Source: Candidatus Omnitrophota bacterium (GTDB taxonomy: Bacteria; Omnitrophota; Omnitrophia; Omnitrophales; Aquincolibacteriaceae). Taken from it: a DNA stretch of 40,832 nucleotides. The notes below the pieces were generated by a model, which was not told the DNA's origin, made no database searches, and saw only the letters and a list, made by a program, of their open reading frames with translations. Made by a program: the position numbers and the translations under genes. This document shows, piece by piece, positions 14,858 to 18,298 of this stretch (position 1 is the stretch's first letter; the number at the start of each line of letters is the position of its first letter). The stretch is taken from NCBI GenBank assembly GCA_023247035.1, contig JAHFHG010000016.1:1-40832 (forward strand), written 5' to 3'.

Positions 14858-16054
14858 TTATTTTTTGTGAGGATGCGTGTGGCTTTTGGCGATCCGCCCA
14901 ACGGCTTCTTCCAGACGGGTTTCGGAAATCGTAAGTGAGATCCTGAAATACCCTTCCCCGTGAGGGCCGAAACCGTTGCCCGGCGTGACCACAATACTCA
15001 TCTGTTCAAGAAATTGAAGGGCCAGTTCTGCGGACGTATAGCCGGGCGGAACGGGAATCCAGCAATAAAACGTGGCCGGCGGCGGAGCGAAATTCCAGCC
15101 GATATTCCGGAAACCTTGGACTAAAGTATCCCGCCTCTTTTGATAAATCTTTAAAAGCGCCTGATGCGCGCGCTCGCCCTCATCGAGGGCCTTTTTGGCA
15201 GCCCACTGAATGGCCTGAAAAATGCCGGAGTCCACATTCGACTTCACCTTTGCAAGGAGCGCTAAAGCCTCGGTATTGCCGGCCGCAAAACCAACCCGCC
15301 AGCCCGTCATATTGAAGGTCTTTGAAAGCGAATGAAATTCTACGGCGATCTCTTTGGCGCCTTCGATTTCCAGAATACTCGGCGCCTCATACCCTTCGTA
15401 GCCGACTTCGCAATAGGCGGCATCTTGAGCCACGAGGAGCTGATGTTCGTACGCAAAGTCGATCACATCCTCAAAGAACGCCTTGGAGGCAACCGCGGAG
15501 GTCGGATTGTTCGGGTAGTTCATATAAATAAGTTTGGCCTTCTTCAAAATATCGGAAGGGATCGCCCCGAGGTCAGGCAGGAAATCATTGGATTCCAGAA
15601 GGGGCATAAAATAAGGGACGCCGCCGGCAAAAAGGGTTCCCGACCTGTAGGGAGGATAGCCGGGATCCGGGATCAGCGCCACATCCCCGGAATTTAGAAT
15701 CGCAAGCGGGAGGTGCGCAATGCCCTCCTTGGAGCCGATGAGCGGCAGGATTTCTTCGGCCGGATCGAGCCGCGCCCTAAAACGTTTCTGAAAAAAATCC
15801 GCAATGCTTTCCCGGAAAACAGGCATACCGGTGTCCAAAGCATACCGGTGATTTTTGGGATCCTTCGCCGCTTCAGAAAGGGCCTCGACGATAAAATCCG
15901 GCGTCGGCAGATCCGGATCGCCGACTCCCAGATCAATCACGTCCCTGCCCTTTGCGATCAGCTCGCGTTTTTTCCGGTCGATTTCCGCGAAAAGATAGGG
16001 AGGCAATTGCTTCAACCGTTCGGGAGGCTCAAAACGAATGATTTTCTTTTGCAT
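14858..16054 (-). CDS. dapL: LL-diaminopimelate aminotransferase
   Basis: This is a class I/II PLP aminotransferase of 398 residues. The catalytic lysine is K245 in HSLSKTFNMTGWRVG; the cofactor is further held by the NYPNNPTSAV, QDAAYCEV (D211, Y214) and GYFRIS elements. The start PPYLFAEIDRKKRELIAKG and the PTPDFIVEAL stretch resemble the DapL group, which converts tetrahydrodipicolinate directly to LL-diaminopimelate for lysine and peptidoglycan. A related aspartate or alanine aminotransferase role cannot be excluded by motif alone. The gene has its own promoter with the -10 box only ten bases before the ATG and no ribosome binding site, so the mRNA may be nearly leaderless. Confidence 0.88.
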   Translation of the reverse strand: MQKKIIRFEPPERLKQLPPYLFAEIDRKKRELIAKGRDVIDLGVGDPDLPTPDFIVEALSEAAKDPKNHRYALDTGMPVFRESIADFFQKRFRARLDPAEEILPLIGSKEGIAHLPLAILNSGDVALIPDPGYPPYRSGTLFAGGVPYFMPLLESNDFLPDLGAIPSDILKKAKLIYMNYPNNPTSAVASKAFFEDVIDFAYEHQLLVAQDAAYCEVGYEGYEAPSILEIEGAKEIAVEFHSLSKTFNMTGWRVGFAAGNTEALALLAKVKSNVDSGIFQAIQWAAKKALDEGERAHQALLKIYQKRRDTLVQGFRNIGWNFAPPPATFYCWIPVPPGYTSAELALQFLEQMSIVVTPGNGFGPHGEGYFRISLTISETRLEEAVGRIAKSHTHPHKK

Positions 16055-16064
16055 AGGAGCGGCG

Positions 16065-16093
16065 ATTATAACAGAGGAAATTAAATTTGAAAA
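16065..16093 (-). promoter_or_regulatory. Promoter for dapL
   Basis: On the minus strand TTTTCA (16093-16088) is followed after 17 bases by a perfect TATAAT (16070-16065). The ATG of dapL (16054) begins ten bases after the -10 box, so the transcript would have a leader of only a few bases. The -35 box overlaps the end of the preceding small gene. Confidence 0.6.
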
Positions 16094-16275
16094 GAGAAGC
16101 CGGGGTTCAAAAGACGGAGTTCGTAGGCCTTTAATCTTACTTCTTCTCTGACCCAGGAGCAGCGCGTGGAAATGTAGAGGGAATAAACGTCTAAAAACTC
16201 ATCCTGCTTTTTTTGTATTTCTTCTCTCAGATCTTCTTCGTCCTGAATCTTTAAAATAAGGTACGGCGTTTTCAT
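16081..16275 (-). CDS. Small unknown protein, third copy of a tandem module
   Basis: This 64-residue protein is not a family I recognise. Its C-terminal half, FLDVYSLYISTRCSWVREEVRLKAYELRLLNPGFSF when read in short pieces, parallels the tail of the 273-residue protein and the 58-residue protein encoded just upstream: all share a FLxLYxxw-xT core, a charged helix, then an E-L-x2-L-x-P-x-F-x-F end. No signal peptide or membrane segment is visible, so it is probably cytoplasmic. The ATG is preceded by GGGGA at a fair distance. Confidence 0.6.
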   Translation of the reverse strand: MKTPYLILKIQDEEDLREEIQKKQDEFLDVYSLYISTRCSWVREEVRLKAYELRLLNPGFSFQI

Positions 16276-16299
16276 AGGAATGTCCCCAGACCTTATCTG

Positions 16300-16476
16300 T
16301 TAAAAAGCCTTCTGAAATTCCCGACGCAGGCTGAAATGCGGCTCCGCGGCTAAAATCTCACCCAGAAGATTGAGGCACCGGCGCTGGACATCTTCCCGGT
16401 GGGTTTCGTGCCATAAGGAGTAAAGCTGCAAGAGCTTCTTTGCCTTGATACGGAATCTACGCGCATTTCCTCTCAT
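16300..16476 (-). CDS. Small unknown protein, second copy of a tandem module
   Basis: The ORF track gives a longer 120-residue frame here, but its first part lies antiphase over the 273-residue gene. The likely start is the ATG at 16476, ten bases after a GGGAGG ribosome binding site, giving 58 basic residues. It overlaps the upstream stop by 20 bases. The sequence KLLQLYSLWHETHRED and the end PHFSLRREFQKAF closely parallel QFLDLYAQWLETKNP and PAFGFDPDREFQRG at the end of the upstream protein. Function is unknown; the relationship is visible directly in the residues. Confidence 0.6.
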   Translation of the reverse strand: MRGNARRFRIKAKKLLQLYSLWHETHREDVQRRCLNLLGEILAAEPHFSLRREFQKAF

Positions 16477-17278
16477 CGGTTCCAAACCTCCCGCGTTGAA
16501 ATTCCCGGTCCGGATCAAAACCGAATGCCGGATCCAGGTTTTTGAGTTCCCCAACCAGAGCCGTAATTTTCCTTTCCAAGACTGGATTTTTAGTCTCCAG
16601 CCATTGGGCATAGAGATCCAAGAATTGATCCATTTTGCTCTTTTTTTGATGCTCGACTTCATACTGCCTGAACTCGCCCATAAAGTGATGAAAGACCTGA
16701 TCGCGGAAATTCGTCACAAAGTCAAAATATTCCCGGCGAACGGTCCGGAGCAGCTCCTGGTAGGCGTCAAAATACCGCGAAAGCTTTTCAAGCACGTCGC
16801 CGACCCCGGTTTTTTTGCGGTAAATGCGGTTGTGGTACACGGCCGCTTGATCGTAATAAAGCTGGGCAAGCTCGCGAAAGTGCCTGCCGGAACGCTTGAA
16901 GAAAGCCTGTCTGGGTCTGCGGGTTAAATCATCAAACACGCCGGTGTGGATAAGGATGTGATCGGCATTGACCTTGAAGATAAAATAACGGATGGTACGA
17001 TCTTCGGTTGCTCGCACCCATTTCAAAATATCGCTTGTATCAAGAGACAAATAGGGTTCGGCCATTTCGTGGTATTCAGGCAGCGAAACGGCAAACAGCA
17101 AGTGCGCCAAATAAACGTTTACGTCTTCATCAAAGGTGTAATAGTTGGAGGGAAAATTAGAATCACGGCGGCATTTAATGATCGCCCCTAACAGATAGCG
17201 GATCGCAGAATCCCTTTCCTGCTTTGTCATATCAAAATATAAGCTGTTTTCTTTTAAATTTTCTTTGGGATTGCTCAT
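16457..17278 (-). CDS. Unknown protein carrying the first copy of a tandem module
   Basis: This 273-residue, mostly helical protein has no signal peptide or membrane segment and matches no family I know. The N-terminal 120 residues include YLAHLLFAVSLPEYHEMAEPYL and RTIRYFIFKVNADHILIHTG, which look like a compact alpha/beta or helical domain. Residues 128-210 are charged helix. The tail at 213-262 is the module repeated in the two small genes downstream. The ATG at 17278 follows an AT-rich gap with a possible promoter. It is separated from recO by a plausible terminator, so the three module genes form their own unit. Confidence 0.7.
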   Translation of the reverse strand: MSNPKENLKENSLYFDMTKQERDSAIRYLLGAIIKCRRDSNFPSNYYTFDEDVNVYLAHLLFAVSLPEYHEMAEPYLSLDTSDILKWVRATEDRTIRYFIFKVNADHILIHTGVFDDLTRRPRQAFFKRSGRHFRELAQLYYDQAAVYHNRIYRKKTGVGDVLEKLSRYFDAYQELLRTVRREYFDFVTNFRDQVFHHFMGEFRQYEVEHQKKSKMDQFLDLYAQWLETKNPVLERKITALVGELKNLDPAFGFDPDREFQRGRFGTDERKCA

Positions 17279-17361
17279 TTTCGTTCTCTACCCACGTTAT
17301 TATTTTACTTAATACTTTTAAAAATATTTAGAAAAACTTTACAATTAAAGAGTCTCCAAAA

Positions 17362-17390
17362 ACCTTAACATGATAACTTTATTCTGTCAA
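17362..17390 (-). promoter_or_regulatory. Weak candidate promoter for the three-module operon
   Basis: A perfect TTGACA (minus strand 17390-17385) lies in the AT-rich gap upstream of the 273-residue gene, but the best -10 at 17 bases (TAAGGT) matches only 3/6. Other AT-rich -10-like boxes closer to the gene exist, so the exact pair is uncertain. Confidence 0.3.
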
Positions 17391-17423
17391 ATTAGGGACG
17401 GATATAGTTAAAAATAGTTTTGA

Positions 17424-17458
17424 ATAAAAATTGATATAGAAATATAGCTTTATATATC
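17424..17458 (-). terminator. Possible AU-rich terminator after recO
   Basis: On the minus strand downstream of recO, GATATA (17458-17453) pairs with TATATC (17438-17433), with an inner ATATA/TATAT stem, and is followed by AATTTTTATT. The stem is weak because it has few GC pairs, but its position at the end of a long operon and before a TTGACA box fits. Confidence 0.35.
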
Positions 17459-17536
17459 TCTTTATCATTGAACTTGGGCTGGATTACTGAACAGGAGAGT
17501 ATGCTTTTGGGCGATCGAATTTCTTAAGAGAAAAGA

Positions 17537-18298
17537 TTAAAGCTGGGAAAAGGCGGGTTTTAACTTCTTCAAAAAAACCTTACTCTTGAGCGGCCTTGAT
17601 ATCCTTTCCAGGAAAAATCGGTCCATCATAGTTTCAAGCTCCGCGCCCGCACTCGTCTTGACTAAAAACCGGCTCGACATTTCAAGATCATGCCGCGCGT
17701 AATAACGGATTGCGGCCAAAGTTTCTCGCTGGATCCGGAAGGCATCGGAATAGCGTCCTGCGCAGGCCGGGCACAAAAGAGCGCCTTGGCGGGGGGAAAA
17801 AAATCCCTCCTCCAAATGAGGGTTTGAGCAACCCAGGCAGCGGTCGAGGTACGGGAGCCAGCCGATCTCGTTTAAGAGTTTAATCTCAAAAAGCCGGGCG
17901 ATCCGCCGCCCTGAAAGAGAAGCGAGGTAGCGGAAACAAAAATCAAGCAGGCTGAAGATGTTTTCGTGCGGATCATGGACCTCGCTGAGTTGATCCGCGA
18001 GCTCGGAAAAATAACTGGCGTAGGCAATCGACTCAAGCCGCGAGTGAAGGGACGGGTAACTCTCGAGCAAAAAGGCCTCGGAAATCAAATGCAAATCCGA
18101 GCGCGTTTTTTCGTAATAGACAATTTCAACCAGGGTGAATAATTCATAAAGCGCCCCCCGCGTTTCGCCGGCCTGCCTGACTCCTTTGACCAGCCCGCGG
18201 ATTTTGCCGAAATCCCGGGTAAAAAAAGTGACGATCAGCGAGGTGGAGCGGAAAGGCTGGGTTTTTATAATGATTGCGTGGGTTTTTTGAATCGCCAT
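17537..18298 (-). CDS. recO: DNA repair protein RecO
   Basis: RecO helps load RecA at single-strand gaps, together with RecF/RecR. The N-terminal OB fold reads HAIIIKTQPFRSTSLIVTFFTRDFGKIRGLVKGVR, the family start. The middle has a helical domain and a zinc-binding CLGC...CPAC pair (residues about 154-177), as in many RecO proteins. At 253 residues the length is normal. It follows ybeY in the same direction, an order (phoH, pgpH, ybeY, recO) widely found in bacteria, which supports both the identity and the reading of this run as one unit. Confidence 0.93.
   Translation of the reverse strand: MAIQKTHAIIIKTQPFRSTSLIVTFFTRDFGKIRGLVKGVRQAGETRGALYELFTLVEIVYYEKTRSDLHLISEAFLLESYPSLHSRLESIAYASYFSELADQLSEVHDPHENIFSLLDFCFRYLASLSGRRIARLFEIKLLNEIGWLPYLDRCLGCSNPHLEEGFFSPRQGALLCPACAGRYSDAFRIQRETLAAIRYYARHDLEMSSRFLVKTSAGAELETMMDRFFLERISRPLKSKVFLKKLKPAFSQL

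Follow-up and report, generated by a model that had tools for sequence, protein, structure and literature searches.

Exodeoxyribonuclease VII has a small helical accessory subunit (XseB; PF02609, NF002139). In the CRISPR Cas8/Cas11 systems, the small, all-helical subunit is related to the large subunit's C-terminal part and is made separately (PMC7684278, PMC11899642, PMC3150331); in type I-C, the gene for the large subunit encodes it within its own 3′ end (PMC7684278).

We analysed a 40,832-nucleotide stretch of DNA (the window) from an uncultured Omnitrophota bacterium; its nearest relatives in a collection of named genomes all belong to Omnitrophota. In this stretch, three consecutive genes, here called C, A, and B, encode a longer protein and two mini-proteins (Table 1). 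The initial annotation had proposed that all three carry one short module and that two of its copies exist as separate mini-proteins that overlap or adjoin the longer protein. The open reading frames and their positions confirmed the second proposal, and BLASTP, profile-profile comparison, and an HMM built from the C tail all bore out the first.

Table 1. Features of the C-A-B locus, with positions in the window
Feature	Position	Strand	Basis
C, 273-aa all-helical protein	16457..17278	-	ORF list; present in 45/58 relatives
C-terminal hairpin module of C, residues ~207-258	16505..16660	-	BLASTP, profile-profile, AF2
A, 58-aa stand-alone module	16300..16476	-	ORF list, BLASTP, profiles, conservation
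B, 64-aa stand-alone module	16081..16275	-	ORF list, BLASTP, profiles, conservation
C/A overlap, 20 nt; codes both C tail (DERKCA) and A start (MRGNARR)	16457..16476	-	
AT-rich gap between recO and C, 258 nt, 24-29% GC	17279..17536		
recO, upstream neighbour	17537..18298	-	Pfam RecO_N/RecO_C
DapL-like class I/II aminotransferase gene, downstream neighbour	14858..16054	-	Pfam Aminotran_1_2

The ATG of A lies 20 nt within the 3′ end of C and has GGGAGG upstream, while B starts 24 nt 3′ of A, leaving a natural spacer of 8 codons. In the window, the open frame of A is 120 aa long and A begins at an ATG within it; it is the start yielding 58 residues that is conserved in relatives. Purine-rich stretches precede the starts of both A and B. 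Much of the window's family shares the DERKCA end of C, which may be conserved simply because its bases also code for the start of A. The neighbourhood contains ybeY, recO, the dapL-like gene, folK, panC, and panD, and the AT-rich gap before C stands out in this otherwise tightly packed run of genes. The gap is likely to be the promoter region of C-A-B. A simple promoter and terminator scan of the locus, the gap included, detected nothing clearly above chance, and an Rfam scan over the locus gave no match.

Pairwise comparison of the three proteins revealed similarity between the C tail and each mini-protein. BLASTP aligned C with A over 49 residues (35% identity, E=8e-8) and with B over 42 residues (31% identity, E=1e-6), and the A/B match was weak (E=0.026). 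The BLOSUM62 local scores behaved in the same way: those of C-A and C-B, 73 each, were reached by none of 5000 shuffles, and that of A-B, 35, was reached by 58 of 5000. Profile-profile comparison of the family alignments, which the initial annotation had suggested as a check, was significant for all pairs (C/A, 4.6e-9; C/B, 1.7e-10; A/B, 5.6e-6). Since iterated searches mix the three families, we excluded them as evidence of homology. An HMM made without iteration from the C tail alone recognized 26/26 A proteins at 14-35 bits and 31/31 B proteins at 17-43 bits, with every one scoring above the best shuffled control (9.7 bits, from 20 shuffles per sequence). The alignments gave a module pattern of FLDxYxxWLxTKxPxL...ELxxLDPxFxF in C, RLLRLYSxWHETH...L...PxFxLRxEFQxAF in A, and DEFLDVYSLYLxT...KAYELHLLDPxFxFxI in B. 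The module is short and helical, as would be expected if amphipathic helices had converged and there were no homology. We rejected convergence, which we judge very improbable, because position-specific conservation (FLDxY, W/Y, LDPxFxF) spans families and phyla and the cross-family profile scores exceed those of all composition-matched shuffles. C, A, and B almost certainly have one homologous module of ~45 residues in common.

Structure prediction points to a helical hairpin as the form of this module in C, A, and B. The AF2 model of C (44 sequences; pLDDT 89.1, pTM 0.72) is all helix; its last part consists of a ~60-residue helix (170-229) and, after it, a return helix (232-248). The module comprises the end of the long helix, a turn, the return helix, and PxFxF. 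A and B were modeled as one read-through chain, in which the TAA of A was read as Gly and the 8-codon spacer was translated, purely as a computational linker. This model (pLDDT 86.5, pTM 0.47) contained confident hairpins at 2-25/28-44 and 80-104/107-123 and no confident packing of A against B.

The initial annotation knew no named family for the module, and none fits the proteins: Pfam, NCBIfam, PHROGs, and PADLOC contained no acceptable match to C, A, or B. A and B had nothing in Pfam or NCBIfam, the PHROG and PADLOC matches for the window's proteins were absent or had E >= 0.012, and 27 distant relatives of C gave no acceptable match in Pfam or NCBIfam. The best Pfam match of C, TSNAXIP1_N (PF15739), falls on its long helix; however, it covers a helical stretch only, and its score of 17.4 bits falls short of the cut-off (27). 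At E <= 0.001, C matched nothing in the PDB (profile search and Foldseek) or among BFVD viral folds (Foldseek), and the joined A-B chain had no fold match in the PDB. A plasmid collection yielded no match, and a literature search on this locus found nothing relevant.

We next consider how the genes are distributed. C is present in 45 of 58 related genomes. At these 45 loci, A occurs in 27 and B in 32; both are found in 24, A only in 3, B only in 8, and neither in 10. The initial annotation had called for a search for the trio in related genomes, and the 24 complete loci answer it, with the small ORFs conserved. Gene order is always C-A-B, nearly always after recO, which lies upstream at 42 of the 44 other loci; a DapL-like gene lies downstream at 32 of 44, and several of the missing recO or DapL-like neighbours are contig ends. 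A sensitive frame-by-frame search downstream of C detected no decayed remnants of A or B in the loci that are without them. The overlap of C and A is also conserved: across most of the window's family, and in the neighbouring family f3, A starts 20-26 nt before C ends (at -20 in 10 further loci and at -23 in 2), and several other loci have an overlap of 4 nt. In one genome (G017), C and A form one open frame across a short run of unknown bases (L042:941-1945, G017:C68), which probably reflects a gap in the assembly and not a fusion.

All three genes are under purifying selection, with pN/pS of 0.17-0.30 for C, 0.21-0.42 for A, and 0.06-0.34 for B, although synonymous sites are near saturation for most pairs. 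It is accordingly very improbable that A and B are spurious ORFs or that they are fragments left to decay after a tandem duplication. Such a reading could draw on the shortness of both proteins and on the longer open frame that contains the 58-aa frame in the window. However, intact frames are kept in several families of the order, pN/pS is well below 1, purine-rich stretches precede the starts, and each protein forms one clade. On the strength of conservation, purifying selection, and clade structure, we rejected this reading.

In a tree of 148 modules, weakly resolved because it rests on few columns (52), A formed one clade (SH-aLRT 96), as did B together with the B protein of G030, a genome without C (SH-aLRT 96). 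A and B thus qualify as families, each being one clade, adjacent to C, and under purifying selection, with B of G030 the exception to adjacency. Because A and B are each one clade and under purifying selection, C-A-B is an ancient gene set rather than the product of a recent duplication at the locus. Outside Omnitrophota, C is found, module included, in Eisenbacteria, Krumholzibacteriota, and Latescibacterota. Across these phyla and Omnitrophota, the C family is marked by the N-domain motifs DEDVNxY and YxIxKxNAD and by the C-terminal hairpin, all of which the window's C possesses. Residues D50, D52, H59, K102, N104, and D106 of C are invariant. No A- or B-like ORF was found beside C in the three other phyla, within flanks of up to 4 kb (many contigs being shorter). 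The interpretation offered by the initial annotation is partly upheld, with tandem duplication supported as an ancient event. Partial copying of the C tail at the locus fits, because C that carries the module is what is widely distributed and A and B are one clade each; we infer the direction of copying. In the simplest history, C would have come first, A and B would each have arisen once from its tail, and repeated losses would have followed.

The neighbourhoods in Eisenbacteria, Krumholzibacteriota, and Latescibacterota offered no functional clue, as C is usually alone on its strand. This is the case at seven Latescibacterota and Krumholzibacteriota loci (L120, L122, L134, L138, L145, L147, and L152), where the flanking genes on the opposite strand recur, one appearing nitrilase-like and one IMP-dehydrogenase-like by eye.

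Elsewhere in Omnitrophota, the module stands by itself or is preceded by just a portion of the long helix of C. Family f43 has ORFs of ~90-127 aa that consist of the end of the long helix and the module, without the N-domain (L157:4878-5156, L159:4575-4898, L160:549-896, L162:4631-4942, L163:4857-5186, L164:1725-2045, and L174:2842-3222). In most of these loci, the large gene next to the ORF was recognized by eye as that of a UvrD-type helicase. Further single cases were found in G100, G191, G216, G048, and G112. In G112, a 64-aa stand-alone module (L169:3029-3220 and L175; G112:C18) has AAA_5 (GvpN-like), Hsp20, and CDC48-type AAA genes as neighbours, resembling a gas-vesicle cluster, and a relative of C lies elsewhere in the genome. 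A C relative in G125 has the N-domain without the hairpin module (L167:303-947, - strand; G125:C63), and the next ORF appears by eye to be of the NYN/YacP type. The hairpin module is a movable unit.

This mobility is the main argument for a rival view, in which the hairpin is a general adaptor and A and B bind partners of their own, having only ancestry and genome position in common with C. In other Omnitrophota families, stand-alone modules beside the UvrD-type helicase, the gvpN-like/CDC48 cluster, and further genes fit such a role, as do the independent losses of A and B and the presence of B without C in G030. That genome is 91% complete and has no detectable C; its B (L165:4794-5099, G030:C72) lies between recO and the dapL-like aminotransferase gene. 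Against a general adaptor, in 285 genomes sampled across the phylum, all 27 strong A matches and 32 of 33 strong B matches were at C loci, with G030 as the single exception, and the overlapping start of A suggests that A and C are synthesized in a coupled manner. We regard the adaptor view as possible, though somewhat doubtful. That selection has kept the C-A-B arrangement in many related bacteria suggests that the mini-proteins cooperate with C or modulate it.

Rates of change in C bear on the same question. In the window's family, identity to the window's C averages 66% in A-bearing genomes and 46% in the clade that lacks A, whereas control genes do not differ between the two groups (DapL, 71% and 69%; PanC, 55% and 56%; PanD, 70% and 69%; AspDH, 55% and 54%). 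On a fixed six-gene control tree with FastTree topology, the C/control ratio on the stem of the A-less clade was 6.7, the highest of all branches, compared to 1.16 overall. However, A was lost one branch before this fast stem, on a branch with a ratio of 1.5, and members of a second fast stem (ratio 4.0) mostly keep A; for these reasons, the link between the absence of A and the divergence of C is suggestive only. Distance correlations controlled for species divergence were weak (A-C, 0.05-0.30; B-C, 0.34-0.40; A-B, -0.03).

In the most likely mechanism, to which we give about an even chance, A and B would be small subunits or regulators and pair with the hairpin of C; the initial annotation had suggested a complex with the longer protein or its regulation, which is plausible. 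The constant adjacency, the overlapping start of A, and the rate link speak for this mechanism, whereas the joined A-B model without confident packing and the weak distance correlations speak against it. C is predicted to have a helical N-terminal domain leading into the ~60-residue helix, which turns back at its end to make the two-helix hairpin, and A and B are stand-alone, diverged copies of that hairpin whose genes lie immediately downstream. The three genes would be carried on one transcript, with translation of A coupled to that of C through the overlap. The amphipathic hairpins of C, A, and B could then pair with each other. A and B would thereby serve C as small accessory subunits, or cap its C-terminal hairpin, and may set its oligomeric state or choice of partner.

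A and B could also regulate C negatively: as free hairpins, they would compete with the one in C itself and block self-association of C without being lasting subunits. Such a role would suit proteins that hold little beyond the common module, overlapping synthesis would fix the ratio, and the losses show that C can persist without A and B. However, self-association of C is an assumption, and the mini-proteins have conserved signatures of their own (YSxWxET and the AF end in A; DEFLDVYSLY and KAYEL in B), which suggest distinct partners for A and B. We consider negative regulation improbable. Returning to A and B as partners of the C hairpin, it is tentatively possible that C, A, and B form an undescribed Omnitrophota hetero-oligomer, in which three homologous hairpins, one part of C and two contributed by the adjoining mini-genes, assemble via the same fold and from which lineages may drop hairpins. 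The partners are unlikely to form an obligate 1:1:1 complex, given the independent losses of A and B and the retention of B in G030 without detectable C.

Together, our results define an unnamed C family that spans at least four uncultured phyla and, with it, two mini-protein families that had gone unnoticed; how these relate to C provides a testable hypothesis. The locus is a clean case in which a terminal module gave rise to independent genes that were long retained, and it should be useful for annotating very small genes, which gene finders tend to drop.

How does C-A-B compare with the described systems? Like XseB, A and B are small and helical. However, the window's C, A, and B give no match to the XseB models, and single members among the 27 distant relatives of C match them (PF02609/TIGR01280) weakly, with E values of 0.018-0.089. 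The likeness to Cas8/Cas11 lies in the homology of A and B to the C-terminal helical part of C, an analogous arrangement without Cas homology. C, A, and B have no sequence or fold match to those proteins, and the C-A-B neighbourhood, which was the region covered, contains no CRISPR gene. Moreover, the Cas small subunit arises from an internal start in the same frame, whereas here two separate small genes stand beside C. The comparison with Cas8/Cas11 is thus best read as an analogy, a likeness of design rather than of membership.
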